Origin: Henriciella algicola
Lineage (GTDB): Bacteria > Pseudomonadota > Alphaproteobacteria > Caulobacterales > Hyphomonadaceae
Reading direction: 5' to 3'
Length of the DNA: 64,000 nt
Assembly (NCBI RefSeq): GCF_003576245.1
Contig: NZ_QWGA01000008.1
Span: forward strand, 451,184 to 515,183
Shown here piece by piece: positions 11,722 to 45,076 of this stretch (position 1 is its first letter; each line of letters starts with the position of its first letter). Under the pieces are notes generated by a model that had not been told where the DNA came from, made no database searches, and was given only the letters and a program-made list of their open reading frames with translations. The position numbers and the translations under genes were made by a program.

Positions 11722-12483
11722 CTACGAGTCGAAATGTTGGCTGTGTTCTTTCATCGCACGTTCGATCTTATGTGCGGAAAGGTCTGGGTCGATAAGACCC
11801 GCAAGCTTGACGGTGAACTTCGTGGCATCGTTCTTAGGGATCGCTGCTGGTTCGTCGGTCTCATCGTCATAATCATCGAAGTATCGCGAGTAAGTCCGTC
11901 CATTCTGCTCCCAAAAACGTTTGATATTGCCGATCAGCCCGATGAGTGCCCAGGCTGAGTTGAACGGCTTGGCTTCGCGTTGTCCAGTTTGCTCTATGAT
12001 TGACTCAAGACGGCTTGCAGTTCGTTGGGCTTGGTCCTGCAAGACGCGGACGCCTGCGGCGATAACCTCCAAAACCAAGTGGCGCTGGTCGATATCTACT
12101 ATCTCCACTGCGGCGCGATGAGCTATAAGTTTCGCGAAATCCTCATAGAGGTATGCCGGCGTGGTGTCGTCAAACTTTACCGAAGCCACGGCAGAGGCCG
12201 TTCTCCCATCCAATCCATTGAGCTCATCGGCAAGAGCGGCCGCGCGTTTCGCAATCTCTCGTGCAGTGTCTCTCACCGTCGCAGTGGATGGCGCCTCATC
12301 ATACATGGCGCGGTCGTTGCGATAAGAACGGGACCACTGCGCGAATTCGTCTTTGAGGGTCTGGGAGCTTGGCAGAGCGTAACTGTCGGTAAGCCGTTTA
12401 GCATCTTCGTCCGAAAGCGTTTGAGCCACGCTCATATCTAGCAGATTAGCGGAGTATCCCTTGGCTCGCTTTTTCGAAGGCAT
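11722..12483 (-). CDS. Hypothetical protein of the mobile element
   Basis: A 253-residue, charged, mostly helical protein without signal peptide or membrane segments. The N terminus is basic (MPSKKRAKGYS). The middle (about 65-170) has alanine-rich helices that could form a coiled coil. The C-terminal part has an acidic tract (YFDDYDDETDEP). It ends three bases before the integrase start region on the same strand, so the two are likely co-transcribed in the order integrase then this gene. I do not recognise a family. Confidence 0.6.
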   Translation of the reverse strand: MPSKKRAKGYSANLLDMSVAQTLSDEDAKRLTDSYALPSSQTLKDEFAQWSRSYRNDRAMYDEAPSTATVRDTAREIAKRAAALADELNGLDGRTASAVASVKFDDTTPAYLYEDFAKLIAHRAAVEIVDIDQRHLVLEVIAAGVRVLQDQAQRTASRLESIIEQTGQREAKPFNSAWALIGLIGNIKRFWEQNGRTYSRYFDDYDDETDEPAAIPKNDATKFTVKLAGLIDPDLSAHKIERAMKEHSQHFDS

Positions 12484-29010: not shown

Positions 29011-29622
29011 GTGTTGGAGTTGGGTCGTTTGGTTGAAAATCTAGAAGCGTCGTTCGTCGCGCGCCTCGAAGCGCTCATGCCCGAGCTGAGGGCATTTGCC
29101 AGAGGTCTCTGCCGCGACGCAGCACTCGCCGACGACCTTGTTCAGGACGCTTGTCTGAAAGCCTGGACATCTCAAGAGATGTTTGACCCCTCGCAACCAA
29201 TGCGACCATGGCTATTCCGCATCCTGCGCAACGAATTCTACATGCAGAAGCGCCGCTCATGGCGTTCGGTCAATCTTGAGCCGGATGTGATTGCCGCCGC
29301 GCTTGTCGCTGAGGCCCAGCAAGAAACCGCCAAGGATTTCGCGCGTATGGAGCACCTTATCAGCCAGCTGCCAGACGACCAGCGCGACGCGCTTATCCTG
29401 ATCCTGGCGGCAGGCATGACCTATGATGAGGCAGGCGAGGTCTGCGGTTGCTCTGCGGGCACGATCAAGAGCCGCGTCAGTCGCGCGCGCGAAACGGTGA
29501 GACGGCGTTTCGTGTCGAGTGAGCGCTCTTCCTACACCGTCAAACGCCCTGAAGGGCAGGGACTTCCAGCGCTTCTCAACCGGATTGACGAATTAGCAGG
29601 GCCTGCCCGGCACCCGCTTTGA
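29011..29622 (+). CDS. ecfG: EcfG-type general stress sigma factor
   Basis: A 203-residue ECF sigma factor. Region 2 shows LRAFARGLCRDAALADDLVQDACLKAWTS and RPWLFRILRNEFY. Region 4 shows LPDDQRDALILILAAGMTYDEAGEVCGCSAGTIKSRVSRARE. The pairing with nepR identifies it as the general stress response sigma factor. Start codon choice (GTG at 29011 or nearby TTG) is uncertain. The PPTase gene starts three bases after its stop, so both may be read from one stress-controlled message. Confidence 0.9.
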   Translation: MLELGRLVENLEASFVARLEALMPELRAFARGLCRDAALADDLVQDACLKAWTSQEMFDPSQPMRPWLFRILRNEFYMQKRRSWRSVNLEPDVIAAALVAEAQQETAKDFARMEHLISQLPDDQRDALILILAAGMTYDEAGEVCGCSAGTIKSRVSRARETVRRRFVSSERSSYTVKRPEGQGLPALLNRIDELAGPARHPL

Positions 29623-29624
29623 CA

Positions 29625-30284
29625 ATGCGCGGCGGCTCTATAGCTGCTGGCCCGGTCTGGGCGATCTCCGACAGGCGGAACATCCAGCACGGCCTTGAGC
29701 CTGCTAACGAGGCCGAAAAAACACGTGCATCCAGGCTTCGACAAAGCGAAGACGCGGCCGACTTCCTGCATGGCAGATGGCTCATGCGGCAGCTTATCCA
29801 GAAGCAGCGGCCACAGGCTGGAACGCCGGTTCTTCAAAGCTATGACGATGCCCGCCCGGAGCTAGTTGGCGCGTCTGACCTAGCTATCAGCTGGTCGAAG
29901 TCAGGGCCCGTCGCGGCGGCGGCGCTGATAGAAAACGCCGTGGTTGGTATCGATATCGAGCGGCTGGTCCCGCGTGAAACGGACGTGATCCTCTCCATGA
30001 CCGCAAGCGATAGCGAGGCTGAGGCGGTTAGCTCGGCAGGCGACGAAGCTGCCCGTCTCGTCGCCTTCTATCGTCTATGGACGGCCAAGGAAGCGGTCCT
30101 GAAATGCCGGGGAGAGGGGCTGCGCGGCGGTGCGAAGAGCGTTGAAATACTGTCGGATTTCATTCTCGGGCGCGTGGATGAAACCGTCATCGAAGATCGC
30201 GGCGTGTCGCTAAAGCTGTCAGTGATCGACGCTGGCCCTGACGCGGTCTGCACGGCCGCGTTCAGCGCGCAAAAATCGATTTGA
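29625..30284 (+). CDS. 4'-phosphopantetheinyl transferase (Sfp-type, PfaE role)
   Basis: A 219-residue Sfp-type PPTase from the ATG at 29625. The magnesium-site motif NAVVGIDIERLVPRE and the later FYRLWTAKEAVLKCRGEGL are diagnostic. It transfers phosphopantetheine from CoA to the serine of carrier domains. The Pfa synthase operon ends on the opposite strand with a 23-base overlap of the two gene ends, so its two ACP domains are the likely substrates, matching the role called PfaE elsewhere. It follows ecfG by two bases, so its level may rise with the stress response (inference). Confidence 0.88.
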   Translation: MRGGSIAAGPVWAISDRRNIQHGLEPANEAEKTRASRLRQSEDAADFLHGRWLMRQLIQKQRPQAGTPVLQSYDDARPELVGASDLAISWSKSGPVAAAALIENAVVGIDIERLVPRETDVILSMTASDSEAEAVSSAGDEAARLVAFYRLWTAKEAVLKCRGEGLRGGAKSVEILSDFILGRVDETVIEDRGVSLKLSVIDAGPDAVCTAAFSAQKSI

Positions 30285-30843
30285 ACATCCAGCCGGCGAG
30301 GGATTTGCCGCTCGTGTGACGATCATCCTGCATGTCAAAAACCATAAGGGAAACAGTGCCGAAGGGCGGCGCGTCGATGCCTTCCTTGCGGATGTCAAAG
30401 CCCATGGAGCCATAGAACTCACGCATCTGCGCTTCGGCCAGAATGGCGATATAGCGGTGCTTGTTGCGGGCCACATAGTCGAGCACGGCGCGCATCACCG
30501 GGCCGAGCGTCTTGGAGCCTCGCCTCTCTGGTGCGGTGACAAGTTTCGACACAACGACGCAGCTTTCCCCTTCAGCGAGGACTGATCCGAGGTCGAAAAC
30601 CCGAAATCTTTCAGATGCTTCGCTTGCATGCACAGGGATGACCTGCGCGCTGGAAACAAGGTCGGCCCCATCAAATAGCGCGAAAGTCTCGCCAAGCAGA
30701 TCAGCCTCATCGCGAAGCAGCCGGCTTTCATGGTCGGCGCCTTTCATGGCGAACTGTTTCTCGGCGCAATAGACCCGGTAGCGCAGGTGCTGGACCAAGG
30801 GGAGGGTGGCATCGGTGACGGGGATGATCTCAAAATTATCCAT
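30262..30843 (-). CDS. GNAT acyltransferase, N-acyl amino acid synthase / autoinducer-synthase-like
   Basis: A 193-residue protein from the ATG at 30843 (GGAG nine bases upstream). Its start overlaps the stop of the giant synthase gene by eight bases (ATGGATAA), so it is the last operon gene. The pattern LRYRVYCAEKQF near 20-31, VVVSKLVTAPERRGSKTLGPVMRAVLDYV near 95-120 and ILAEAQMREFYGSMGFD resembles FeeM-type N-acyl amino acid synthases and the exosortase-associated acyltransferases, relatives of LuxI. Such enzymes take an acyl chain from an acyl carrier and join it to an amine. Role here: possible release of the Pfa product as an N-acyl compound (inference). The overlap at its 3' end is with the PPTase gene. 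Confidence 0.72.
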   Translation of the reverse strand: MDNFEIIPVTDATLPLVQHLRYRVYCAEKQFAMKGADHESRLLRDEADLLGETFALFDGADLVSSAQVIPVHASEASERFRVFDLGSVLAEGESCVVVSKLVTAPERRGSKTLGPVMRAVLDYVARNKHRYIAILAEAQMREFYGSMGFDIRKEGIDAPPFGTVSLMVFDMQDDRHTSGKSLAGWMFKSIFAR

Positions 30844-33800
30844 GGGGATCATCTCCGACAGACCAGGCGCGCGCGGCAGTATCGAAGCGCAGATCGTAAC
30901 GGCTGCGGGCGTTCGGGCCGATGACGAAGGGTGGGTCTAGGGTCAGCTTCTGCGGATGGATGCCCCATTTGCGGGCGAAGAATTCCTTCACCGCGACGCG
31001 CTTGATGAGGTCAGCACCTGTCAGCCCGTCCAGTCCCCAGGCGGCGGCGACCGTGCCGGGCAGCCAGTCGCACGCCATGACATCGGCGGGCGCCACAAGG
31101 CTGCGATCGCCTTCCTGCCAGCTGAGCGGTGCGACCACCTCGTCACTTGTGCCGGTCAGAAAAACCTTTCTGGCCAATGGGTTGAGTGCGCCGAGCTTGC
31201 CTTTCGGATAAGCCTTTTCGATGAGGTCCAGCCTCGCCCAGAGCGTGCCGTTTTCTAGATAGGCCTCGACGAGGACGGGCAGGTCATCAGAGCCTTCAAG
31301 GCGAGCTTGCGGGCGGCCCCTTACGGTGAGTTTCCCGCTTTCCGGAAGCGGGCCGAGCACGCTCAGGCGGTCAATCCGGACAGGGTAGATGGCGGTGTTT
31401 TCCGCATCCTCGAACCATTCTTCAGGCGTTTCGTGCGGTGGGCCATGGACGAGGCCGTCCAGTATCACCGGGTCGAATGGGTCCCCGGGATTGATGCCCG
31501 CGGCAAGGTCCAGAACCGCTTCGAAACCCTTTGCGTCACGGCGCATCGAGACCACCGGCTGCATGGCAGGCCCATGGAAAAGGTCGCCGGAGGCATAAGG
31601 AGTAGCACGCTTCTTTCCATGCTTTTCGGCCCCAAGTTTTGGCTTCGGCCCACGCACCGGCTGACTGATCTTTCCGGCGGAAATTTCGTACCATGGCGCG
31701 TCGCCGGAGAGGGCATCGCGGCCGCGCAATCTCGCGTCGCCGTCTGGTGCCACCCTTGTCTCTACGCTGAGGCCATCACCGCTGAGGCTTCCCCAGCGCT
31801 TAGGAGAAAACGCTTTCAGTTCAATCGGGTAGCCTTCGAAGCCTGCCGCTCTTGCCTGCTGCAGGGCCATTCCGGCCTGGGCGAGAAGGGGGAGCGAGGG
31901 GAGGGTATGGGTTGGACGATGCGACTGTAGCCAGCCCTCGTTTCCAGCAGAAAACATGGTGCAGTGGCGGTGCAGTGACGGTGTACGGGCGGTGCATATA
32001 CGGACACTCAATTCGCGCATCTCATAGATCTTCAGCCCATCGACCCAGAGCACGCCGCGCCCCTTCACGATGGTCGCGTGATCGCTTTCTTCGACGGCCA
32101 GAATCTCGACCATCGGGGTCGCCTGTTTCGCCGTTGGCATGACCTGACCGCGATAGGTCCAGTTCACGTCATTGGCCTCGGCAATCGGCTCCCAGACAGG
32201 ATGCTCGAACCGGTCCGCAAGACCTTTAAGGTCTGCCGCGCGGGCGAGAAGCTGCACCAGCATATCGAGGCCGAGTGAACCGGGCTGGACCGGGTCAGAG
32301 AAGAAGTGCGCCTTGAAGTACCAGGCATAAGGGTCGACGGCCTGCCGAGCGCGGATCTGGCCAAGACCGGCGCTGCCGCCTTCTGGCTCGAACCGGTCGA
32401 TGACGTCGAACAGGGCGAGACGGTTGCGGGAGGCCAGCAGGCGGGTGCCGTCCTCGCTCGGTGGGTCGGCTGGCGCGTTGACGAAGTCGCGGTCCGCGTC
32501 GGTTGGCTTAAGGCCAGCCTGCGCGGCGAGCGAGGCTTTGGTGAAGAAACCGAAGCTCGTCTCGAGCGAGATGATGGGGGTGCCATCGGCGAGCGTGGCT
32601 TCGAGCGCGAAGAAGACGATCGTCATCGGCCCCACGCGCGAGCAGCGGGTCAGCGTCGTTGCCGTGCGGACCATACCGTCGCCGGGGCGGACCTGACGAT
32701 GCAGCTTGCCGCTGCCATCGAGATTGCGGAAGCGCGTCTCACCAGAGAGGGCAAAGCCTGAATAGGAAGCGAGCCAGCCGCAGGGTTGAAGGATGACTTC
32801 TGTCAGCACGCTGAAAGGCATGGTGCCCGTGCCGCCATCCTCGAAGTACCAGGCGTCTATCGGGACATCGTATTCGGCGACAGCTTTGAGGCCTGCAGAC
32901 TGCTGGCCAGCAGGGCCGGAGACTGAGAGGACACGGCTGACCATGTGATAGGGCGGCTGTGGTAGGCGCGGGACAGCGCCTTTCGTGTCGAAGGGCGCAT
33001 ACATGCTGCCAAAGGCATTGCTCGGCGCCCCAGAGCCGCACTCCATGAGGGCCGCTTCGTCACCGCGCACGTCGCAATCAGCGTTCACATAGTGAGGTGG
33101 GGTGGCGGCTTTTGGCTGGTCTGGCCACTGGCGGCGAAGGCGGATGCCAAAGCGCGGACAGTAGAACACCTTCCGGCCATCAGAGCGGGCAAGAAGGCTG
33201 GCGAAGACCATCGGCTCCTCGCCGTCGATCACCTCGTCGACGAAGACCTCATAAGTGACGTCGTGGTCCGCATCGGGCGTGACCTGACCCCGGCAGTAGA
33301 AGGTCGCAGGCGCGCCCGGTGCCGGTTCAAAGACATGGCTGTCACGCTCAATGGTGAGACCAAGTCCTGCGGCAGTGAATTCCAGCGCCTGAACAGCCGC
33401 TTCGGCCATGAGCGTGCCGGGCATGCACGGGTCTTCGTGGAAATGGCCATCATAGAACCAGGCGTCCTTCGCCACCTTGTGGCGGGCCTTGAGATAACCG
33501 CGCCCCCATGGCCCGCCTGTGGGGTCAAACTCAGCCACATCATCAAAGAGCGAGAGCTTGCCAGCTGGCAGGCGGGCAGGTCGTGTGTGCGGGGCCGCGC
33601 GCTCAAACCCTTCGCCAAAACAGCGATAGGTGTCGCCAGCGCGGAAGGCGGCGACGTCGGCGGCGCTGAAGCTACGCTTGCCTGTCGGTGATTTCTTGTC
33701 GAGGCGCGGCTCTGCCGTTGGCGCGCCTTCGCTGGCGTCCCAGAGTACACCCTTGGAGTTGGCGAGTTCATCATCAGTGAAGAAGCCTGCCTGACCATTG

Positions 33801-36800
33801 CGGACAGACAGGAGCAGGCGCTCATCGGCGTAGCAGTCATATTCGAAGAAGAACATGCGGACGCCGGACAGCTCTGCATGGCCCTTGATCGAGATCTGGA
33901 AGCGCAACGTCTCTCCCACGCGCGGCAAGCCGCCTTCGTGGAAGGTAAGCTCGCAGCCGAGCAGGCGGTAGACGCGGTCCGAGCAGTTCAGCATGTCCGC
34001 GCCCATCCATGAGATGAGTGCAAGGTCTGCCTGCCCCGCCTCGATCAGGGGACCGGGGCGCAGCATGCCGTCACTTACCGCCCAGAGGTCTGCCGTCACA
34101 TCGGTTTCGGTCCAGATGGTGCCTTTGCCCTGAACGAGGGCTTCGGCATCAATGCCGGTGATGCGGTCACAGAGCAGCATGGGCGGGCGCGGCATACGCA
34201 CCTGACGGCGGTATTTGTCCTGCGCGGCGAAGGCCTCGCCGAAGACATCGGAAATGTTGCCGACGGCAGCCTGCTCGATCTGAGCGCGGGTGAAGGAGGG
34301 GCCTATGGGCGTCCGACGCTGCAGCGGCGTGACGGATTTGAATGCCTGAGCAGGAGCAGGCGAAATGCGCTTGGCCGGGGCGAGCTTTGGTGCGGGCGTC
34401 GGCGCGGTTGGGGGCGTCGCGGCCGGTGCAGGACGCCTCCGCTCAAGAACAGCGGTGCCGACTGTCTTCACCACGGGCGGAACCCAGCTTGTGCCGGGCG
34501 GCAATGGAAGTGTGCGCGCGTGCGCTGGTTTTGCGGGCGGGAGCGGGCCGGGCTTGAAGGATGGCCGTTTGGGCAGGGCGAGGCGGCGGCGCGCCGTCTG
34601 GCGCGAGCCAGATGGAAGCTGTGGCAGGCGCGGCGGCGCGGCATGCGCATCGAACGTGATGGCGCCCTTGTCTTTCACCCGCAAGGGCAAGGTGTTGGCG
34701 GAGGCCTCATCTAGCTGTGACTTCAGCCAGTCCACATTGAGCGCGCGCCCTTCAGCAAAGAGGCGCGCGGTGAGGGCGGCGATACTGTCAAGCGCGGGCG
34801 TGCCGAACCGGTCTGTTGGCAGCGCCGTGGCAGAAGCCCCCAGCGTTTCCTGAACGGCCCCGGTGAGCGTGTCGCGGGGCCCGATCTCGATAAAGGTCTG
34901 CACGCCGTCGGCATGCGCGGCGCGGAGCGTCGCCGGGAAATTGATTGGCGCGATGGCCTGCCCTGTCAGCATATTGGCGGCGCTGTCGGCCGAGACGTCA
35001 TATGCGCCGTTGATGGCGTTGGCGTAGAAGCGCACGCCGCCCGGCGCCTTCGTCTTTCTGAAGTGAAGCTGATGCCAGGTCTTCTCATAAGGCAGCATGG
35101 CCGGGGTGTGCACGGTAAGGTCATGCGGCACGCGGATCGCTGCCGCGCCGAGCCGCTTTATGACGCGCTGGCAGGCGATCGCCTCACCAGAAATGACCAC
35201 ATCGCTAGCGCTATAGATGATGGTGATGTCGCAGCGCGGCTCTGGCTTGATGGCGTCGCGGACAGCCGCCTCGCTGGTGCGCAGGCGCCATGTTGCCCAT
35301 TCAATCTGGGCCTTCTCGCCCCATGCCTTGCGGGCGGTTTCGAACGCGCCTGCGAGGTAGCGATCATACATGCCGCTTTCGCCAATCGTGCCCATCAGTC
35401 CGTCAGCATCGACCCATGCGCCAAAGGCGATGAGCGAATTAGTCTCGCCGGAAGAAAGCCCCATGGCGACTGTCGGGTTGAGACCAAGTTTCTTCGTCAG
35501 GAGGAGATGCTGGGCCTGCGAGACGAGCGTGGTGGCGCGCAGCTGGCTGAAGGCGCTTTCAAGGCCAGTGGCGAGCGTGTCGGCCACAGATTGAGCTGCC
35601 GGGAAACGCTGGGTGACAAGCTTGCCGAGAGATGGGAAGGCGGAGAAGAGATCGCGCCCCATGCCGGGATAAGCTGCAGCCGCGCCGGTGAAGACAAAGG
35701 CGAGATCACCCTTTGGCGCGCCCGCACCGAAATGGATGCCGTCGCCGCTCTCAAGCCTGCCTGAACGAAGGCGCGAGGCAGCTTCGAGGCGAAGCGCCGT
35801 CATCTCTTCAGGGCGTGAGGCGAGCAGGGCGACCCGGTGGTTGCCCTCGCTGGCTTGTTTCTGGCTTTCAAGGCAGGCGATGAGCGCGTCGCGGCTGTCG
35901 GCGCCATAGGTTTCAAGCTGCGGCGGCGGGCGCAGCAGGTCTGGCGAGGGTTGTGGGCGCGTCTTCAGTTTGATGGCGGCCCCCGCGACAGCTGGGCGCG
36001 TGGCTGAGTTGTCGAGCCGCGGGATGAGACCCGTATCGGCAAGTTCGAGGCCGCGCGCGGCGGCTTCGGCCTGCAGGCCAAGTTCGACGAGGCTGCCCGC
36101 CGCATGGGCATGGCCATAGATGCGGGAGATGAGGGCGTTTGGCGCCTGGCCCGCTTCAATGCGGAGCGTGCGGATCTCAGTTGCTGACGGCGCGTCCGCG
36201 CTGCGCTGCAGGATGAGGGCTGCGGCGGCGTCGCCTGTGCGCGCACTGCCCGTGGCGGCGTGAACCTCATCGCTGGACAGGTCGGCGGCGGCGACGATGG
36301 CGGCGTCGATCTCGCCCGCCTGAAGCGCGCGGATGGCAAGCTCTGCAACGCGAAGGCCGGACGCTTCCTCCTCCATCACGGCAAATCCCAGCGCGCGCCA
36401 GTCGCCGCGCACATTCAGCCGGTTTGCAGAAACGTTCGGCATCGCGCCAAGGACGTCGCCAGCTTTCAGTGGCGCGGCAATGGCGTTGCGGGCAGCGTCC
36501 GCCTCTGGCGATGATGCGCTAAGGCCCAAGCGCTCCGAAATCCGTGCACGGAGCATCCAGCGGGCCGCTTCGGGGGCACAGCTGAAACCGGTGTAGACGC
36601 CGACGCGCGCGCCGTCTGGCAGGGCTGTGCGCGAAAGCGCTTCGTCGACCGCGTCCCAGAGCGCGACCTGCTGGCCCTGTGCTGAAGAAAGATCTGAAGG
36701 CGGTGCGCGAAGCGCTTTCGGATCGGCATGGGTTTCTGTCATCGAGCCGCGCGCATCCTTTGGCGGGCGCATCAGGCGTTGAAGCACGCGCGCGACGCCG

Positions 36801-38155
36801 CGATCCGGGCCAAGGGAAAGGCCGGTGGCGGTGACGGCGATATGGGGCGGTTTCTGTTCGGGCTTTACGGCCTTTCGGCGCGCGCGATGACCGTCATCGG
36901 CGGCAAGGATCAGATGGGCATTGTTGCCGCCAAAACCGAAATTGGAGAGGGCCGCGACGCGCGGGCGGTCGTCCGGCCACTTGCCTTGCCGGGCGGGGGT
37001 CAGGCCGCCTGCGTCAAAGCCCGCGATGGCGTCGCCTTCAAGCCGCGTCGGCGGGATGATGCCCTCATTGACGGCATAAGTGAGCTTGATGAGGCTCGCC
37101 ATGCCAGCGGCCGTGATGAGGTGGCCGAGATTGCCTTTGAGCGACCCCATCGGGAGGTCGTCCATGCCCTCGAAATGGGCGGCGGTTGCGGCGAGTTCGA
37201 CAGCATCGCCCGTGCGTGTGCCGGTAGCGTGCGCTTCAACGAGACCAATGTCGCGTGACGGGTCGAGGCCTGCACCTGCCCAAGCGGCGGCCATGGCTTC
37301 GCGCTGGCCATCGCCATCTGGGGCGAGCAGGGATTTGCGGCGGCCATCATTGGAAAGACCAATGCCGCGAATAACGCCGAAGACGCGGTCGGCGAGGTCG
37401 CAGTCTGACAGGCGTTTGAGGACGATGGCGGCGGCGCCTTCTGCCGGGACAAGGCCATCTGCGCCGTCCACAAATGGCCGTGAACGGCCTGTCGGTGAGA
37501 GTGCGTTGAGGGCGGAAAAACCCTGATGAAGGATGAGATTGTCTGCGCCGTTTACAGCTGCGGCGACGACGATATCGAGGCTGTGATCCTGCAAGCGGTC
37601 GCAGGCGAGCTTGATGGCGTAGAGCGAAGACGCGCAGGCCGCATCGATGGCGAAGGCTGGGCCCGCCGCGCCGAGCGAGCGGGCAAGAAGCTGCGCGGGG
37701 CCGCCTGTGTTGAAGCGGTTTTGCGGGTCGATGTCGGACGTGCCATCGAGCCAGATGTCTGCGGCATAGTCAGAGAGCGCGCGGCTCGGATAGCCGAGAT
37801 TACCCGCGATGACGCCGATCCGGTTCTTTCGCGCCTTGGGTTGTCCGGCCTCACGCCAGGCTTCGCGGCCAGCATGCAGCAGCCACTGAAACACGGGGTC
37901 GAGGTCGCTTGCGTCGATGTCATCGAGGTCATGGGCGGCAGGGGCGAAGACCTTGTCGAAGCCGGTGACGAAGGCGCCCTTGTAGCCTAGTGCTTCGTGT
38001 TCGGCGTCGGTAACGCCCCATTTGCCGGGCGGGGCGTCGGTGATGAGACTTTTTTCATCCAGCACTGCGCGCCAGAGCTCAGCAGGCGACAACGCGCCGG
38101 GGAGGACGCAGCCGCGCCCGACAATGGCGATCGGGTCGAATTTCGCCTCAGACAT
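30836..38155 (-). CDS. PfaC-like multidomain lipid synthase: KS-CLF-AT-DH-DH-DH
   Basis: About 2439 residues from the ATG at 38155 (GGAGAT upstream, eight-base overlap with the KR stop). Domains in order: ketosynthase 5-423 (DAACASS Cys174, EAHATGT His309, NLGH His345); chain-length-factor-like 438-733 with Glu where the active Cys would be; acyltransferase 815-1150 (GLSSG, Ser901); four FabA-type hotdogs 1288-2053 forming two dehydratases (active His in YDGHFHEDPCMPG near 1571 and YFKAHFFSDPVQPG near 1950); then a polyketide-type double-hotdog dehydratase 2070-2330 (SHRPTHTLPSLP, HGPAMQ, PVILD). The last ~85 residues (VKEFFARKWG) are unassigned, faintly PPTase-like. A Pro/Ala linker runs 1175-1275. 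The KS-CLF-AT-DH-DH order is like Pfa3 of myxobacteria. It builds unsaturated chains with PfaA, KR and PfaD. Confidence 0.88.
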   Translation of the reverse strand: MSEAKFDPIAIVGRGCVLPGALSPAELWRAVLDEKSLITDAPPGKWGVTDAEHEALGYKGAFVTGFDKVFAPAAHDLDDIDASDLDPVFQWLLHAGREAWREAGQPKARKNRIGVIAGNLGYPSRALSDYAADIWLDGTSDIDPQNRFNTGGPAQLLARSLGAAGPAFAIDAACASSLYAIKLACDRLQDHSLDIVVAAAVNGADNLILHQGFSALNALSPTGRSRPFVDGADGLVPAEGAAAIVLKRLSDCDLADRVFGVIRGIGLSNDGRRKSLLAPDGDGQREAMAAAWAGAGLDPSRDIGLVEAHATGTRTGDAVELAATAAHFEGMDDLPMGSLKGNLGHLITAAGMASLIKLTYAVNEGIIPPTRLEGDAIAGFDAGGLTPARQGKWPDDRPRVAALSNFGFGGNNAHLILAADDGHRARRKAVKPEQKPPHIAVTATGLSLGPDRGVARVLQRLMRPPKDARGSMTETHADPKALRAPPSDLSSAQGQQVALWDAVDEALSRTALPDGARVGVYTGFSCAPEAARWMLRARISERLGLSASSPEADAARNAIAAPLKAGDVLGAMPNVSANRLNVRGDWRALGFAVMEEEASGLRVAELAIRALQAGEIDAAIVAAADLSSDEVHAATGSARTGDAAAALILQRSADAPSATEIRTLRIEAGQAPNALISRIYGHAHAAGSLVELGLQAEAAARGLELADTGLIPRLDNSATRPAVAGAAIKLKTRPQPSPDLLRPPPQLETYGADSRDALIACLESQKQASEGNHRVALLASRPEEMTALRLEAASRLRSGRLESGDGIHFGAGAPKGDLAFVFTGAAAAYPGMGRDLFSAFPSLGKLVTQRFPAAQSVADTLATGLESAFSQLRATTLVSQAQHLLLTKKLGLNPTVAMGLSSGETNSLIAFGAWVDADGLMGTIGESGMYDRYLAGAFETARKAWGEKAQIEWATWRLRTSEAAVRDAIKPEPRCDITIIYSASDVVISGEAIACQRVIKRLGAAAIRVPHDLTVHTPAMLPYEKTWHQLHFRKTKAPGGVRFYANAINGAYDVSADSAANMLTGQAIAPINFPATLRAAHADGVQTFIEIGPRDTLTGAVQETLGASATALPTDRFGTPALDSIAALTARLFAEGRALNVDWLKSQLDEASANTLPLRVKDKGAITFDAHAAPPRLPQLPSGSRQTARRRLALPKRPSFKPGPLPPAKPAHARTLPLPPGTSWVPPVVKTVGTAVLERRRPAPAATPPTAPTPAPKLAPAKRISPAPAQAFKSVTPLQRRTPIGPSFTRAQIEQAAVGNISDVFGEAFAAQDKYRRQVRMPRPPMLLCDRITGIDAEALVQGKGTIWTETDVTADLWAVSDGMLRPGPLIEAGQADLALISWMGADMLNCSDRVYRLLGCELTFHEGGLPRVGETLRFQISIKGHAELSGVRMFFFEYDCYADERLLLSVRNGQAGFFTDDELANSKGVLWDASEGAPTAEPRLDKKSPTGKRSFSAADVAAFRAGDTYRCFGEGFERAAPHTRPARLPAGKLSLFDDVAEFDPTGGPWGRGYLKARHKVAKDAWFYDGHFHEDPCMPGTLMAEAAVQALEFTAAGLGLTIERDSHVFEPAPGAPATFYCRGQVTPDADHDVTYEVFVDEVIDGEEPMVFASLLARSDGRKVFYCPRFGIRLRRQWPDQPKAATPPHYVNADCDVRGDEAALMECGSGAPSNAFGSMYAPFDTKGAVPRLPQPPYHMVSRVLSVSGPAGQQSAGLKAVAEYDVPIDAWYFEDGGTGTMPFSVLTEVILQPCGWLASYSGFALSGETRFRNLDGSGKLHRQVRPGDGMVRTATTLTRCSRVGPMTIVFFALEATLADGTPIISLETSFGFFTKASLAAQAGLKPTDADRDFVNAPADPPSEDGTRLLASRNRLALFDVIDRFEPEGGSAGLGQIRARQAVDPYAWYFKAHFFSDPVQPGSLGLDMLVQLLARAADLKGLADRFEHPVWEPIAEANDVNWTYRGQVMPTAKQATPMVEILAVEESDHATIVKGRGVLWVDGLKIYEMRELSVRICTARTPSLHRHCTMFSAGNEGWLQSHRPTHTLPSLPLLAQAGMALQQARAAGFEGYPIELKAFSPKRWGSLSGDGLSVETRVAPDGDARLRGRDALSGDAPWYEISAGKISQPVRGPKPKLGAEKHGKKRATPYASGDLFHGPAMQPVVSMRRDAKGFEAVLDLAAGINPGDPFDPVILDGLVHGPPHETPEEWFEDAENTAIYPVRIDRLSVLGPLPESGKLTVRGRPQARLEGSDDLPVLVEAYLENGTLWARLDLIEKAYPKGKLGALNPLARKVFLTGTSDEVVAPLSWQEGDRSLVAPADVMACDWLPGTVAAAWGLDGLTGADLIKRVAVKEFFARKWGIHPQKLTLDPPFVIGPNARSRYDLRFDTAARAWSVGDDPHG

Positions 38156-39557
38156 GCGCGATCTCCGCACCGGCAACGAGCTCGACCGGGCAGGCGGCGC
38201 CTGCGAGAACCGCGTCGGCGAAGGCGTTGGCCCCGGCGGCTTTCGATATCAGAGGGACGCCAAGCTCTGCGAATTTTGCGCGAAGGCCGTCATCCACCAT
38301 GCCGCCATCCCATGGGCCCCAATTGATGGAGGTGATGGCGGCGGTCGGATTAGCCGATTTCAGCCACCAGGCCATGCGGTTCAGGATTTCATTCGCCATG
38401 GCGTAGTCGGCCTGGCCCGCATTGCCATAGCGGGCGGCGACGGAAGAGAAGAAGACAACGGTTTTTAGCTGGCTCGTGTCGAGCTGCGAGATAAGGGCTT
38501 CGAGGCCGCCAATCTTGGGGCCGAAAACGCGGGCGATCTGTTCGGGCGTTTTCTCGCGGATCAGCTTGTCGGCAAGCACGCCTGCGCCATGGACGAGGCC
38601 CGTAATCTCACCCAGCTGGCTGCGAATATTGGCGAGGGCTGCGCCGAGGGCGGCAGGGTCGGAAACGTCTGCCGGGATGTAGTGCGCCTCACCGCCCGCG
38701 CGGGCGATAGCGTCCAGCGTTTCGCGGATTTCAGCGCCTGACAGAAGGGCGCGGGCACGGCGGTTTAGCGCGGCAGGCGTGATCTTCTCGCCAGCGTCCT
38801 TGGCCGCCTTGGCGAGGGCGCCTCGCAGCGCCTTTTCATCGGTGGTGACGGGAAGGCCTGCGGGCCATGGCGTGATCTCTGAGCGGCCGAGCAACGCAAA
38901 GCGCGCGCCTGTGCGCCGGGCGAGTTCGATCACGCAGTCTGCTGTCACGCCGCGCGCGCCGCCGGTGACGAGGATAACGTCCTGAGCGCCAAGCCTTCCG
39001 GGTTGGTTGCGGGGCAGGGTGAAGTCTGTGTCCTGCGGCAGGTAACGCCCAGCGGGGCTGAGGCCTGCGGTAGGTGCTGTGCCGCCCGTGAGCAACTCTT
39101 CGGCAAGGTGGCTGGCGGCGAGGGCCGTGCCGAATCCAGCCACGTCGATATCGATCAGGCGGATTGTGGCGGCGGTGAATTCACGCGCGGCGGTGCGGGC
39201 GAGGCCGGAAAGCCCGCCGCGCCAGGCCCGGTGGTCGTGCGGTTGGAATAGGCCGCCTGTATCCTGAAGCAGGATGACTGTGCCGCCTTGTGCCTCGAGT
39301 TGCTGGGCGTTGATCTTTAGCGCAGCGACGGCATCTGCGTGCAATGTCTCTCGCGGGCTGGCGAGGCCGTGGGCGAGGATCAGGGCGCTGGCTGTCCCGC
39401 TGGGGCTGGTGACGGCGTTGACCCTGAAGCCCGATGCGTTGAGGGCGGTGACAAAGGGCTGCGCTGCGCTGAGGTCCGGCGTCACCCATTCAATCAGCGA
39501 TGCTTCGCGCAGGCCCGGTGTCACCCGTCCGATGGCGGACTGGCTGACATAGGCCAC
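38148..39557 (-). CDS. Ketoreductase (KR) segment of the Pfa synthase
   Basis: A 469-residue two-part ketoreductase. It has a structural N-terminal half, then an NADPH site (VILVTGGARGVTADC near 194-208) and the catalytic set in FFSSVAARYGNAGQADYAMANEILN (Ser372, Tyr385, Asn389). It reduces the 3-keto group of each extension cycle. In other Pfa systems this domain is part of PfaA after the ACPs. The frame is open upstream of the GTG at 39557 back to the T-run at the pfaA end, giving an Ala/Pro-rich 33-codon linker, and the GTG has only a weak AAGG site. It may therefore be made mainly by a -1 frameshift as the C-terminal part of PfaA. Confidence 0.88.
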   Translation of the reverse strand: MAYVSQSAIGRVTPGLREASLIEWVTPDLSAAQPFVTALNASGFRVNAVTSPSGTASALILAHGLASPRETLHADAVAALKINAQQLEAQGGTVILLQDTGGLFQPHDHRAWRGGLSGLARTAAREFTAATIRLIDIDVAGFGTALAASHLAEELLTGGTAPTAGLSPAGRYLPQDTDFTLPRNQPGRLGAQDVILVTGGARGVTADCVIELARRTGARFALLGRSEITPWPAGLPVTTDEKALRGALAKAAKDAGEKITPAALNRRARALLSGAEIRETLDAIARAGGEAHYIPADVSDPAALGAALANIRSQLGEITGLVHGAGVLADKLIREKTPEQIARVFGPKIGGLEALISQLDTSQLKTVVFFSSVAARYGNAGQADYAMANEILNRMAWWLKSANPTAAITSINWGPWDGGMVDDGLRAKFAELGVPLISKAAGANAFADAVLAGAACPVELVAGAEIAHV

Positions 39558-39614
39558 AGCCTTGAGGGGCAGGGATGGAAGCGTTGCGGCCTCCTGCCCG
39601 GGAGCTGGCGAAGC

Positions 39615-39662
39615 GGGGCGGGCAGCGTCAGGCGACGCCGGCGCGCCCCCTAGCCAAAAAAA
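39615..39662 (-). promoter_or_regulatory. Candidate programmed -1 frameshift site joining pfaA and KR
   Basis: On the minus strand: an in-frame T TTT TTT heptamer (39662-39656), the zero-frame codons GGC TAG, a six-base spacer, then a stem-loop (39649-39615). The outer stem is GGGGCG/CGCCCC; the inner seven-pair stem is CGGCGTC/GACGCTG with a GCCT loop. The -1 frame has no stop from here into the KR. Slippage would give an 1798-residue KS-MAT-ACP-ACP-KR protein. Confidence 0.65.
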
Positions 39663-42600
39663 TCGGCGATCTTTCGGATGGAGCGCAGCTCTGCGATCTG
39701 TTCCGGCTCGACCTCTGGCAGGTTCGGCATCTGCTCACGCAGGGCAGAGAGGATCTCGACCTGCTTGATGGAGTCGACACCAAGCTCGCCCTCAAGGTCC
39801 ATATCGTCTTCGAGCATTTCAGGCGGATAGCCTGTCTTGTCGGCGATAAGATTGCGGACAAGTTCGGTCATGTTGATGCCGGACGGGGCTGCCGGTGTGG
39901 GCGCTGGCGCGGCGGTGTCTATGTGATGGCCGTAGCCATTGCCATTGGCGTGGACGGCTGGGGCCGCTGGTGCGAGCGCCGGGGTGGCGCTGGCCGATGG
40001 GCTGAGGAACGCCGCGATCTTCGCGATCGTGCGAAGCTCTGCGATCTGTTCAGGCTCGATTTCCGGCAGGCTCGGCATCTTTTCGCGCAGGGCCGAGAGG
40101 ATCTCGACCTGTTTGATGGAGTCGACGCCGAGCTCCCCCTCAAGGTCCATATCGGGTTCGAGCATGTCGGATGGGTAACCGGTCTTTTCAGCGACCAGGC
40201 TGGTCACCAGCGCGGTGAAGTCCTGCGCCGCTGGCGCGGCAGGGGCAGGGGCAGGCACTGGAGCGGGGACCGGTGCCGCCATGACCGGTGCAGGTGCCGG
40301 TGCTGCCGGGGCGGGGGCTGGCGCAGGTTGAGGTGCAGGCGCTGCTGCAACCGGCGGTGGCGCGGGTGGCGCCACAGGCTGAGGCGCTGGCGCGGCCTGC
40401 GGTTGCGGCGCTACGGCAGGGACGGCGCTGGCCGAGGCAAGCATTGCCTGCGTTGCCTGCATATACTGAGCGTGCGCCGCCTGCAGCGTCTGCATGTAGG
40501 CATTGTGCGCCTCCGTCATCTGCGCGTGGATCTGCGCGGCGGCGGAGGCGGGAGCGGTCTGGCGGGGCTCAGTCATGGGCGAAGGTCCTGGCTGGAGTGA
40601 CTTTACAGAAGAAGGTGTTGGCGGCGTCGGCTTCGAAGCAATCGGGTCTGGAGGGGCTGATAAGGTATCGACAGTCCTGGGCCGGACCTTCTCTGCATTC
40701 GGCGGCGGGAGGGCCGCTGCGCCGCCTTTGGGCGGATACGGTTTGTTGTAATTGGCGCCGGTAAGGTCGATCGCGTGTTTGGAGCGGGCTTTGCGTGGTT
40801 CGGGCGCTGGCATGTTGGCAAAGAGCGCTTCGAGGTCGACTTCATGGCCAAGGACAGCCAGCTTGCCGATGCCAGCGAGGAAGGCGGCAAGGCCGCTGCC
40901 TTTCTTGTCATCGAGCGCGACGGCCGTCGCCTTGCCCGGAAGGATCTGGCCGACAAGCGCGGTCAGCACCGTGCCCGGGCCAGCCTCTACGAAGGTGGTA
41001 ACGCCGGCCTCATGCATGGCCTCAATGATTTCACGGAAGCGGACGGGGCTTTCGATCTGTCCGGCGAGGAGGTCGCGCTGCTTGTCATAGGCAAGCGGGT
41101 AACGTTTGGCCGAAGCATTGGCGAAAACCGGGAAGTCAGCCTTGGCAAAGTCGGTCTTGCCGAGCGCCTTGCGGAACGGGGCAACGGCCCCTGCGACGAT
41201 GGGCGAGTGGAAGGCTGACGCGACCGGCAGGCGGCGCGCCTTGATGCCTGCCGCCTCAATCGCGAGACGGGCCGCTTCGATGGCTTCGACAGGGCCGGAA
41301 AGCACAGTCTGGGTCGGTGCATTGTCATTGGCGACGACGACGTCGGGATGATTTTTGAGGATCGGCGTGAGCTGCTCGCTTGAGGCCTGCGTCGCCAGCA
41401 TGGCGCCTTCATTGTCGGCGGCGGCCTGGCTCATCAGCTTGGCCCGTTTGACCGCCGTCGAGAGAGTATCCTTGTCAGAGAGAACACCGGCGGCATTGAG
41501 CGCCATGATCTCACCAAAGCTGTGGCCTGCGGCCATGTCGGCATTGAGGCCGGACTTCTCCAGCACGGCGAGTACGGCCAGCGACGCGGCAGCGAGGGCT
41601 GGCTGTGCATTCTCCATGGCGGTTAGCGTATCGGCCTGCGCCTTGGCGTCCTCATCATTGAAAGCAGATGGCGGAAAGGCGAGCCGGTGAAGGCCCAGCT
41701 TGCCCGCTTTCTTGTGGCTTGCCGCAAAGTCCCATGCCGCGCGCGCCTCAGGGAAGGCGAGCGCGAGTTCGCGGCCCATGCCGACATACTGGCTGCCCTG
41801 TCCAGGCATGAGATAGGCGAGCTTTCCGGGCGCGGCCTTGCTGAGGCTGACGCTGGCGCCTTTCGGCAGGGGCGCCGTTTCGGCCGTGCCAGCGCGAATG
41901 AGCGAGGCAAGCTTTGCAGCCTTGGTCGCGAAGTCCTTATTGTCACTCGCCGTGATAGCTGCGCGGCAGACCGCGTCAGCGGCAAATGAGGCGTGGCTTT
42001 CGCTGGCCGCGATGGCGAGGTCTTCCTCATGCACCAGCTTCGAAGCGATGGCCTCAATGGACTTGGCGAGGTTGTCCGGCGTGTCGGCCGAGACCATGAC
42101 CAGTTCGGCAGGCAAAATGCGGTCGGGGTGAGGGGCGAGCTGGCCGGTGTATTCTTCCAGCGTGACGTGGAAGTTCGAGCCGCCAAAACCGAATGAGCTG
42201 ACAGAGGCGCGGCGGGCATGCGACTTGTCCCTGATCCAGGGGCGTAGCTCACGGTTTACGTAGAAGGGTGACCCGGCGAGCGCAGGTGCGGGCTGGTCGA
42301 CTTTCAGCGTCGGGGGTAGCGCCTTGCGAGAGAGCGCCATGACGGTCTTGATCAGGCTGGCTGAGCCTGCAGCCGACTTGGTGTGGCCGATCTGCGATTT
42401 CACAGAGCCAATGGCGCACCATGGGTCTGAGACGCTTTCGCCTTCTTCGCAGAAGACTAGCTTGAGGCCGGAGATTTCGGCAGCGTCGCCGGCCTTTGTA
42501 CCGGTGCCGTGTGCTTCGACCAGTTCGACAGAGCGCGGGTTATAGCCCGCCTGCTCATAGGCGCGCGCCAGTGCGCGGGCCTGGCCATCAGGCAGCGGGG

Positions 42601-43543
42601 CATAGATGGCGGTGGCGCGGCCGTCAGAGCCTGCGCCGATGCCCTTGATGACCGCGTGAATACGGTTTCCGTCCCGCTCTGCATCGGCGAGGCGGCGGAG
42701 CGCGAGTATGCCGATGCCTTCGCCAAGCATGGTGCCGTCGGCCTTGTCCGAGAATGGACGGCAATCTCCTGTCGGCGACAGGGCCGGGGTCTTGGAAAAG
42801 CACATATACATGAGGATGTCGTTCAGCGCGTCGACACCGCCCGTCAGAACAAGGTCACTGTCGCCAGCACGAAGTTCATGTATGGCGCCGTGCAGGGCCG
42901 AGAGGGATGAGGCGCAGGCCGCATCGGTCACATAGTTCGAGCCACCAAGGTCCATCCGGTTGGCAATCCGCCCGGCGACCACATTCCCGAGAAGGCCGGG
43001 GAAGGTGCTTTCTTTCCACTCTGAGAAATTTTCCGAAATCCTGTCGGCGATTGCCTGCACCTGCGTTTCCGGCAGGCCAGCCTCACGCAGGCCTTTGACC
43101 CAGGACGGGCGTTGCAGGCGGCCAGACATATGCCCGACGAGTTCAGTGGCGGATGCAACGCCGAGAATGCAGGAGGTACGCTTGCGATCGATTGTGCCAT
43201 TGGTCGCCTTCTCAGCCTCATCCAGCGCGGTCTGCGCGACCATGAGGGCGAGCAGCTGGGCGCTGTCAGTCGCGTCGATCTGGTTAGGCGGGATGCCAAA
43301 GGAGAGCGGGTCGAAGCCCTGCGGCGAGAGAAAGCCGCCGCGCTCGCCATAGGTCTTGTCACGGGCGCGCGGGTTGGCGTCGTAATAGTCCTCGATCAGC
43401 CAATGGGTCGGCGGGACCGGTCCCAGCGTGTCGACGCCTTCTGCGATATCGCGCCAGAAGCCCGGCGTGTCCCCGCGGCCCGGGAACATGGCGCCGTAGC
43501 CCACGATTGCGATGTCTGCTGGTCCTGACGTTCTGTCTGCCAT
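39650..43543 (-). CDS. pfaA: PfaA-like synthase: KS-MAT-ACP-ACP
   Basis: 1297 residues. Ketosynthase 9-465 (VTDAACASS, Cys210; EAHGTGT His345; QIGH His387). Malonyl-CoA acyltransferase 575-890 (MPGQGSQY, AAGHSFGE Ser675, SAFHSP His779). A PfaA-type helical stretch QMTEAHNAYMQTLQAAHAQY (1008-1027) and a long Pro/Ala linker (1040-1105) lead to two near-identical carrier domains, each with LGVDSIKQVEIL (Ser1142 and Ser1258). Most marine pfaA genes have four to nine carriers and a KR at the C terminus; here there are two and the KR is in the -1 frame downstream. It starts each chain and carries it. PfaD ends 27 bases upstream, so the genes form one operon. Confidence 0.93.
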   Translation of the reverse strand: MADRTSGPADIAIVGYGAMFPGRGDTPGFWRDIAEGVDTLGPVPPTHWLIEDYYDANPRARDKTYGERGGFLSPQGFDPLSFGIPPNQIDATDSAQLLALMVAQTALDEAEKATNGTIDRKRTSCILGVASATELVGHMSGRLQRPSWVKGLREAGLPETQVQAIADRISENFSEWKESTFPGLLGNVVAGRIANRMDLGGSNYVTDAACASSLSALHGAIHELRAGDSDLVLTGGVDALNDILMYMCFSKTPALSPTGDCRPFSDKADGTMLGEGIGILALRRLADAERDGNRIHAVIKGIGAGSDGRATAIYAPLPDGQARALARAYEQAGYNPRSVELVEAHGTGTKAGDAAEISGLKLVFCEEGESVSDPWCAIGSVKSQIGHTKSAAGSASLIKTVMALSRKALPPTLKVDQPAPALAGSPFYVNRELRPWIRDKSHARRASVSSFGFGGSNFHVTLEEYTGQLAPHPDRILPAELVMVSADTPDNLAKSIEAIASKLVHEEDLAIAASESHASFAADAVCRAAITASDNKDFATKAAKLASLIRAGTAETAPLPKGASVSLSKAAPGKLAYLMPGQGSQYVGMGRELALAFPEARAAWDFAASHKKAGKLGLHRLAFPPSAFNDEDAKAQADTLTAMENAQPALAAASLAVLAVLEKSGLNADMAAGHSFGEIMALNAAGVLSDKDTLSTAVKRAKLMSQAAADNEGAMLATQASSEQLTPILKNHPDVVVANDNAPTQTVLSGPVEAIEAARLAIEAAGIKARRLPVASAFHSPIVAGAVAPFRKALGKTDFAKADFPVFANASAKRYPLAYDKQRDLLAGQIESPVRFREIIEAMHEAGVTTFVEAGPGTVLTALVGQILPGKATAVALDDKKGSGLAAFLAGIGKLAVLGHEVDLEALFANMPAPEPRKARSKHAIDLTGANYNKPYPPKGGAAALPPPNAEKVRPRTVDTLSAPPDPIASKPTPPTPSSVKSLQPGPSPMTEPRQTAPASAAAQIHAQMTEAHNAYMQTLQAAHAQYMQATQAMLASASAVPAVAPQPQAAPAPQPVAPPAPPPVAAAPAPQPAPAPAPAAPAPAPVMAAPVPAPVPAPAPAAPAAQDFTALVTSLVAEKTGYPSDMLEPDMDLEGELGVDSIKQVEILSALREKMPSLPEIEPEQIAELRTIAKIAAFLSPSASATPALAPAAPAVHANGNGYGHHIDTAAPAPTPAAPSGINMTELVRNLIADKTGYPPEMLEDDMDLEGELGVDSIKQVEILSALREQMPNLPEVEPEQIAELRSIRKIADFFG

Positions 43544-43570: not shown

Positions 43571-45076
43571 TTACTCGAAAAGCCCCGCCCTGTAGTCGAA
43601 AGCAGATTGTGGAATGTTCTCTCCGCACGCGCGCCGCGCCTGGAGCCTCGTGAGATGCGCGGCCCCGTCGAGCAGGTTGAGCGCAATCTGTTTGACGGTG
43701 CGGGTCTCGAGCGCTTCAAGCGGGCTTCCCTTTACCCACTCATTGAAGGCGCCCATCGCCGGGCCGCACCAGATCTGATAGTCGCGCAGGCGGCTCTCAT
43801 CGCCCTCGCGCGCCCACTGCGCCCCGAAGAACAGATAACGCCGGAAGACAAGCGCCAGCTGGTGGTGCGGGTCGGCTTCTGCTTTTGCGAGCTCTTTGGG
43901 ATTGGTGCCGCTCATATAGGCGCGGGTCTTCTCCCACGCGGCGGCGTAGGGCTCACCGAGCGCGGTTTCGATGAAGGCCTGTTCCTGCGCCGTGCAGTCG
44001 GCAAAGCTGGCGCGCGTCTTGTGGATCTCGCGCATGCGCTTGCCACGCATGGCGAACAGCGTGCCGCGCTTGAGAACCTGCACCTCTACGCCCTGTTCGA
44101 ACATGTCGGCGGCAGGGGCCATGGCGATATCTGCGGGGCCTGCTTCAGCGAGCAGTTTGCGCCCTGCGAGAGAGAGGCCGGATTCAACGGCGGCCTGATT
44201 GACCGAGCCGGTGATGATGTAGGCCGCGCCCATCTGGAAAGCGGCGGCGGCTGCCCATGGCGTGCCGATGCCGCCGCCAAGGCCGATGCGGATATCATCG
44301 GCATTGAGGCCGTGCTCTTCGCAGACCTGGCGGCGCGCCTGAACCAGCGAGGAGAAGAGGGGTCCGGCGGCGCGGTTGTCGGTATGCCCGCCGCTATCGG
44401 CTTCAGCGGTGATGTCGAGCGCGACCGGAACGCTGGCGGCGATCTCTGCCTGCTCGGGTGTGATGTCCCCCCGGGAGACAAGCTGTTTCAGAATGGCATC
44501 GGGGGCAGGGGCCATGAACTGGCGTGCAACTTCGGCGCGCGAGACCTTGGCGAAGACATGTGTGCTGCGCTTGATGCTGCCATCCGCGGCGCGTGACAGG
44601 CCTGCTGCGCTGTAGCGGACGATTTCGGGCGATAGCTGCATGAAGGCAGAGGCCGAGACACGGGCGACACCGCGCGACAGGAAGAGGTCCACGACGGCGC
44701 GCTCATAGCCCGGCTGCTGCGGCGTATGGATGAGGTTGGCGCCCCAGGCAGGGGCACCTTTGCCGAGAGCTGCCTCGATCTCATCGAGACCTGCGGCAAT
44801 CGTTTCCGGCTTGAAGCCTGCGCTGCCGTAAAAGCCGACAAGCCCGGCCTGCACAGCCGCGATGACCATGTGCGGGGTCGCAATACCGCGCGCCATTTCG
44901 CCGACGATATAGGCAAAGCGGCTACCATGGGTCTTGGTAAAGGCGTGATCGCCCAGCCAGTCTGCATAGACGGCGTTGTCTTGCGAGGTGGCGTTTTTGG
45001 TTAATGGGGGGTGCCGCGTCTCAACCTTCTTGGCCGCGCCGCTGTAACTGTTGGATTCCCAGTGCTGGATCCTCAT
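43571..45076 (-). CDS. pfaD: PfaD enoyl reductase
   Basis: A 501-residue flavoprotein of the PfaD/FabD-accessory type: an N-terminal ~55-residue extension, then a TIM-barrel resembling nitronate monooxygenases (GEMARGIATPHMVIAAVQAGLVGFYGSAG, WGANLIHTP, ALDITAEADSGGHTDNR, GGGIGTPWAAAAAFQMGAAYIITGSVNQ). The C-terminal part with SRLRDYQIWCGPAMGAFNEWVKGS is diagnostic for PfaD. It reduces the enoyl intermediate in trans in cycles where a double bond is not kept, using FMN and NADPH. It is the first gene of the operon; the control region is the 195 bases before it. Confidence 0.95.
   Translation of the reverse strand: MRIQHWESNSYSGAAKKVETRHPPLTKNATSQDNAVYADWLGDHAFTKTHGSRFAYIVGEMARGIATPHMVIAAVQAGLVGFYGSAGFKPETIAAGLDEIEAALGKGAPAWGANLIHTPQQPGYERAVVDLFLSRGVARVSASAFMQLSPEIVRYSAAGLSRAADGSIKRSTHVFAKVSRAEVARQFMAPAPDAILKQLVSRGDITPEQAEIAASVPVALDITAEADSGGHTDNRAAGPLFSSLVQARRQVCEEHGLNADDIRIGLGGGIGTPWAAAAAFQMGAAYIITGSVNQAAVESGLSLAGRKLLAEAGPADIAMAPAADMFEQGVEVQVLKRGTLFAMRGKRMREIHKTRASFADCTAQEQAFIETALGEPYAAAWEKTRAYMSGTNPKELAKAEADPHHQLALVFRRYLFFGAQWAREGDESRLRDYQIWCGPAMGAFNEWVKGSPLEALETRTVKQIALNLLDGAAHLTRLQARRACGENIPQSAFDYRAGLFE

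Follow-up and report, generated by a model that had tools for sequence, protein, structure and literature searches.

The DNA analysed here, called the window throughout, is a stretch of 64,000 nucleotides from the 3.2 Mb genome of Henriciella algicola. Its minus strand carries a pfa gene cluster transcribed in the order pfaD, pfaA, a ketoreductase (KR) read in the -1 frame, and a pfaC-like gene. The pfaD-family enoyl reductase gene (43571..45076, minus strand) lies directly 5' of pfaA and matches the model TIGR02814 (pfaD_fam) with 543 bits, above the cutoff of 449.25. The zero-frame open reading frame of pfaA (39650..43543, minus strand) is translated into 1297 amino acids with the order KS-MAT-ACP-ACP, as judged from Pfam matches to KS, AT and two PP-binding stretches, and ends in IADFFG (D-F-F-G-stop). 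Behind it the -1 frame (38148..39656, minus strand) encodes a linker and the KR in 502 codons (Pfam KR, 121.2 bits) and is closed by the TGA at 38150-38148. Both products match the same family model, TIGR02813: in its best stretch the product of the zero frame aligns with model positions 8-949 of 2582 (992.8 bits; cutoff 1010.1) and the KR product covers positions 1911-2267 (290.7 bits). The KR is thus of the same model as the pfaA product but lies in another frame. The domains KS-MAT-ACPn-KR are present across two frames, and they belong to a single polypeptide only if a frameshift occurs.

The pfaC-like gene (30836..38155, minus strand) contains two KS-type stretches, an AT-like stretch and three FabA-type stretches (Pfam matches, of which that to AT falls short of its cutoff). 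Its likely start is the ATG at 38155, which overlaps the end of the KR frame (ATGTCTGA). Directly 3' of pfaC, a 196-aa open reading frame (30262-30852) resembles acyltransferase models only weakly, with two matches that do not reach the cutoff; its product might act on the Pfa product. A phosphopantetheinyl transferase-like gene (29619..30284, plus strand), with four NCBIfam matches that are all below their cutoffs, is convergent with the operon, and a PfaE role is possible for it.

Slippery heptamer and stop codon at the pfaA-KR junction

The zero frame of pfaA ends GAT TTT TTT GGC TAG. As the sequence-only reading had proposed, the minus-strand sequence confirms that the heptamer T TTT TTT (39656..39662; zero frame GAT TTT TTT) is in register for tandem -1 slippage. 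One sense codon, GGC (39655-39653), separates it from the stop TAG (39650..39652). Translated from the heptamer, the -1 frame begins WLGGAPASP and stays open for 502 codons into the KR, so that the predicted fusion of 1296 + 502 = 1798 residues agrees with the length of about 1798 foreseen in that reading.

Two surveys of relatives, whose genomes overlap and whose counts cannot be added, were used to assess the conservation of this arrangement. The first scan gave 63 loci, of which 43 had both ACP and KR and 20 did not. Among these 43, the KR lay in the -1 frame behind the same site in 23, was fused in one frame in 18, was affected by a deletion in one (L017) and was in the +1 frame in one (L066). 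Twenty of the 23 were from Henriciella, Hyphomonas or Hyphomonadaceae, and the other three (L025, L032 and L062) were named only as Alphaproteobacteria. The family search covered 105 whole genomes, including that of the window; the KR was found in 57, and the junction was readable in 55 after exclusion of L124 and L125, in which it is cut by contig ends. The KR was in the -1 frame at 54 of the 55 readable junctions, and the extension after the slip amounted to 467-502 codons in loci not cut by a contig end. The exception, Hyphomonas sp. L-53-1-40 (L110 in the family search, L017 in the first scan), still has the heptamer, the stop and the 5' arm of the hairpin described below. Compared with its relative L113, it is missing the last part of the 3' arm and some of the linker, and this deletion places the KR in frame 0 behind a TAA. 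Either a mutation or a faulty assembly may account for L110.

At all 55 family junctions an X XXY YYZ heptamer is aligned with the zero-frame codons, as T TTT TTT in 38 (seven T) and as T TTT TTC in 17 (six T). At every junction a stop followed the heptamer after one sense codon (TGA in 21, TAG in 19, TAA in 15), and GGG stood directly after the stop, at the position of the hairpin. Neither of two outcomes that would have refuted the earlier proposal, an in-frame fused gene within the family or loss of the heptamer with the split retained, was found at any of the 55 junctions.

Synonymous variation was examined over the last 72 zero-frame codons, in 48 columns with at least 90% amino-acid conservation, Met and Trp excluded. 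The only columns without it were the Asp and Phe codons of the slip site, GAT in 53/53 rows and TTT in 55/55. The two rows without Asp have AAT and GGT and thus keep the T, whereas other conserved Asp codons are GAT in only 18/53, 22/55 and 19/55 rows. These rows are related, and the counts are not independent. The last codon of the heptamer varies (TTT in 38 rows, TTC in 17), which is compatible with X XXY YYZ slippage provided that a single Phe tRNA decodes the two codons. A pattern for the motif occurred once in 54 of the 105 family genomes, in 53 of them at the pfaA-KR locus, with no hit for the reversed control. Of 299 genomes of the order, 42 had the pattern, 41 of them in the family, against 3 for the reversed control.

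Upstream of the heptamer, the conserved Arg codon eight before the stop (39674-39676 in the window) is CGG, AGG, AGA or CGA in all 54 Arg rows and never CGC or CGT, unlike other conserved Arg codons. It is possibly a weak purine-rich stimulator. An SD-like stimulator upstream of the heptamer is an optional element of such sites in bacteria. The mean anti-SD energy of the upstream region was -3.0 (43 distinct segments), and that of random 17-mers was -2.4.

The downstream hairpin

A hairpin was identified at 39615..39649 (minus strand) by folding and by covariation in relatives. Its outer arms are 39649-39644 and 39620-39615, its inner arms 39642-39634 and 39629-39622, and its GCCT loop 39633-39630. 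The six-base spacer after the heptamer, the six outer pairs and the loop described in the earlier reading all held; its seven inner pairs did not, since there are eight around a bulge. The stimulatory structure of such sites is expected about 5-8 bases downstream of the heptamer, according to PMC4066793.

The fold of the window on its own is unexceptional, with a z score of -1.06 and 33 of 200 dinucleotide shuffles folding equally well, and it contains a few extra pairs nearer the heptamer, inside the spacer. The mean z score over 47 rows was -2.0 with simple shuffles. The first pair of the single-sequence folds came immediately after the heptamer in 30 of 47 and at six bases in 4 of 47. The search of Rfam with 39400-39900 gave no match up to E = 1.

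The 55 junctions represent 47 distinct sequences, which were aligned and grouped by the spacing of the arms into sets of 38 (A2) and nine (A3) rows. A third set (A4, 27 rows) consists of A2 without 11 Henriciella-type rows, in which the inner stem is one base out of register. All six outer pairs are complete in 52 of the 55 junctions, in 11 of these with the 3' arm three bases nearer; the remaining L082, L110 and L104 keep five, four and three. At least five outer pairs are therefore kept in 53/55. Together with the heptamer and stop at all 55, this is the conservation that the sequence-only reading had asked for as a check.

Over the 38 rows of A2, a seven-pair outer stem is 93.2% paired and has 18 double-sided changed cells against 1.6 in shuffles. 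The number of further pair types in these rows, 8 against 7.0, is not above the control (117 of 500 shuffles reach 8). The fourth outer pair alternates between A-U, G-U and G-C, and the change on its 5' side (GGC to GAY) replaces one amino acid by another. Constraint on the protein therefore does not account for the covariation. In the 27 rows that share the inner register, the full hairpin of 14 pairs is paired in 88.4% of cells, with 40 double-changed cells against 14.8 in shuffles and a covariation score of 0.413 against 0.232. Sliding the 3' arm drops the pairing to 54-59%; a slide by one column (+1) gave 9 double-changed pairs, the same as observed. The nine-row subgroup is 98% paired and has no covariation. 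RNAalifold predicted no pairs on all 47 rows, probably because the 3' arm of one subgroup is three bases nearer, and predicted 11 pairs on A4.

The spacing of the main stem and its covariation meet what is expected of a -1 frameshift stimulator, and the hairpin is likely to act as one. The signal exceeds chance through conservation, namely the heptamer, sense codon and stop in 55/55 and the covarying stem, and not through any single fold.

Origin of the ketoreductase product and rival explanations

The KR is under purifying selection. Its dN/dS was 0.08-0.21, and that of its first 100 codons 0.15-0.42, in 17 hand-picked pairs of relatives (Nei-Gojobori script; dS exceeded 1 in some). The motif GGxRGVT was present in 54/54 and YAxAN in 52/52 readable KRs. 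These values bear on the possibility that the split reflects a sequencing error or a decayed pseudogene. Homopolymers are error-prone, and the relative L110 does have a deletion. However, the identical arrangement recurs in 55 genomes from different projects, the window's included, with the same run of six or seven T, which makes an assembly indel very unlikely, and neither the dN/dS nor the intact motifs fit decay. We regard the chance that error or decay explains the split as negligible. The same run of T could instead allow transcriptional slippage, in which a base inserted in some of the mRNAs would produce the fusion. The run is homopolymeric, and long A/T runs are used in this way by some bacterial genes, as described in PMC1088944. 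The runs screened there were of nine bases, whereas the run here has seven T in 38 of 55 junctions and just six in 17. Tandem tRNA slippage is also the better fit to the constant distance of the hairpin and to the restriction of C to the last base of the heptamer, although there are no RNA data. This explanation appears highly improbable.

It may also be argued that the KR is a separate gene, translated from its own internal start after termination of pfaA. Split pfaA1/pfaA2 clusters of this kind are known in other lineages (PMC3098273). In all 55 loci, the -1 frame is free of ATG, GTG and TTG from the last stop that precedes the heptamer up to the heptamer itself. Behind the heptamer the first start falls anywhere from codon 1 to codon 107 in 54 loci, so that no position is common to all, and 12 of the 54 have none in the first 40 codons. 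Even near sisters differ (codon 27 in L097 and 51 in L099; 41 in L098 and 107 in L100). Anti-SD energies for the four candidate starts of the window were +1.4, -2.6, +0.4 and -3.0, against -6.8 for pfaA, -6.1 for pfaD and the mean of random 17-mers given above; the +1.4 kcal/mol belongs to the GTG at 39557, whose ribosome site had rightly been called weak. The point most favorable to a separate gene is a conserved Val near codon 27, at which GTG is over-used (it encodes this residue in 23 of 43 rows, compared with 459 of the 1684 Val codons across the KR). SD pairing at this Val is nevertheless weak, with a mean of -1.5 against -2.4 for the random sequences. The evidence expected of an own translation start is not met, and the GTG in part of the clade is its only trace, and a weak one. 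A separate gene would also leave the fixed heptamer, the position of the stop and the covarying hairpin unexplained, and we consider it very unlikely. What is observed is a selected downstream open reading frame in the -1 frame without a conserved start of its own, as the frameshift reading requires.

We therefore favor, with high confidence, the view that the pfaA-KR junction is a programmed -1 ribosomal frameshift site that yields two forms of PfaA. The frameshift interpretation of the earlier reading is supported on this comparative evidence; slippage in cells, its efficiency and the use of both forms are inferred, and there are no protein or reporter data. In the proposed mechanism, a ribosome with Phe-tRNAs on TTT TTT or TTT TTC would meet the stable hairpin just ahead. 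Some ribosomes would slip back by one base in tandem, bypass the stop one codon later and read 467-502 more codons through the linker and the KR. Termination would give KS-MAT-ACP-ACP, and frameshifting KS-MAT-ACP-ACP-KR. The efficiency may be low, since in E. coli U_UUU_UUU is less prone to frameshifting than A_AAA_AAG (PMC5009743).

Frameshifting ribosomes would also be delivered to pfaC through its overlapping start. In every one of the 53 family loci that are readable here, the start of pfaC either overlaps the KR stop or lies directly next to it (45 called by motif and 8 by eye; 2 of 55 loci are cut). The pfaA stop is about 1.5 kb upstream of this start, and terminating ribosomes end there. 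Often pfaC has an SD-like sequence of its own, with energies of -2.6 to -9.2. The location of the pfaC start at the KR stop means that its translation is possibly linked to frameshifting, and such coupling is plausible, although inferred. Only tentatively do we suggest a stoichiometry switch, which remains somewhat doubtful, in which one slip rate determines what fraction of the modules carries a KR and also the ratio of PfaA to PfaC. If this were true, the lipid could change in chain length or in its degree of reduction.

Relatives outside the family and known frameshifting systems

Outside the family the KR is fused to PfaA in one frame, as the sequence-only reading had stated for other Pfa systems, with two exceptions. 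The 18 fused loci of the first scan are from Gemmatimonadota, Myxococcota, Actinomycetota, Planctomycetota and one alphaproteobacterial MAG. An in-frame fusion is also present in all five genomes of other families of the order and in three of four plasmid records, and in four more genomes from the class the KR lies in open frames of 1512-2462 aa. The cause of the two exceptions, L066 and L135, is uncertain. In L066 (an Elusimicrobia MAG), near 9820-9846, the PfaA-like open reading frame ends shortly past nine A and the KR is in the +1 frame, which may reflect an assembly error or transcriptional slippage. In L135 (a plasmid of Persicobacter psychrovividus), near 12360-12395, the KR is in another frame; it was rejected as a second case, the frame change being a single-base gap relative to its fused sister L134.

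In a KR tree of 80 rows, the 53 family rows lay on one side of a branch with support of 100/97. The label in this tree is family membership, so L110 is included. The 12 long branches flagged and the midpoint root limit finer claims. The KR of L095 (genome G020), from the genus of the window, grouped with Hyphomonas-type rows, which suggests transfer or misplacement. To judge from the single branch of the KR and the fused relatives outside the family, a fused pfaA probably gained the site once.

The E. coli dnaX gene is likewise a cellular gene with a downstream hairpin, a nearby stop and two proteins from one gene. In dnaX the slip occurs on A AAA AAG and frameshifting gives the shorter of the two proteins, whereas pfaA would slip on U UUU UUY and gain a whole catalytic domain by frameshifting. 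Both heptamers are of the X XXY YYZ type (PMC5009743, for the dnaX A_AAA_AAG). In the OrfA-OrfB systems of the IS1 and IS3 families a -1 slip gives a longer fused product, as is proposed for pfaA, and U_UU.U_UU.C is among the heptamers of IS elements (PMC4066793). Those systems are mobile elements, whereas pfaA encodes a host biosynthetic megasynthase. When both frames are considered, the order KS-MAT-ACPn-KR is that of the PfaA of PUFA and secondary-lipid synthases (TIGR02813), although the fused relatives have the KR in the same frame, and the window has it in the -1 frame, past a stop. Shulse and Allen (2011) distinguish clusters of Types D and H, in which pfaA1 [KS-AT-ACP5] and pfaA2 [KR] are described as split genes, with the KR as a separate open reading frame and pfaBC fused. 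The word 'frameshift' is absent from the main text (PMC3098273).

Among the matches listed in a search of the open-licence PMC literature, no report was found of programmed frameshifting in a Pfa, PKS or FAS gene. Polyketide and fatty-acid terms led to nothing relevant in the accessible parts of PMC3711429 and PMC5009743. A paper on pks15/1 (PMC7205293), also among the matches, mentions frameshifts. The mechanism is of a known kind, and among the matches listed in the literature searched there was none in which it acts on a domain of a megasynthase. To our knowledge, few cases of conserved -1 frameshifting are known in bacterial host genes (dnaX, copA).

These results suggest that gene callers list pfaA as ending early and the KR as an odd open reading frame, and for this reason recoding may also underlie some of the 'split pfaA' clusters seen elsewhere. 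The junction also offers a directly testable system, in which variants of the heptamer and the stem can be placed in a lipid pathway with a measurable product. In 54 of the 55 readable species of one family, frameshifting would decide whether the megasynthase carries one of its catalytic domains.
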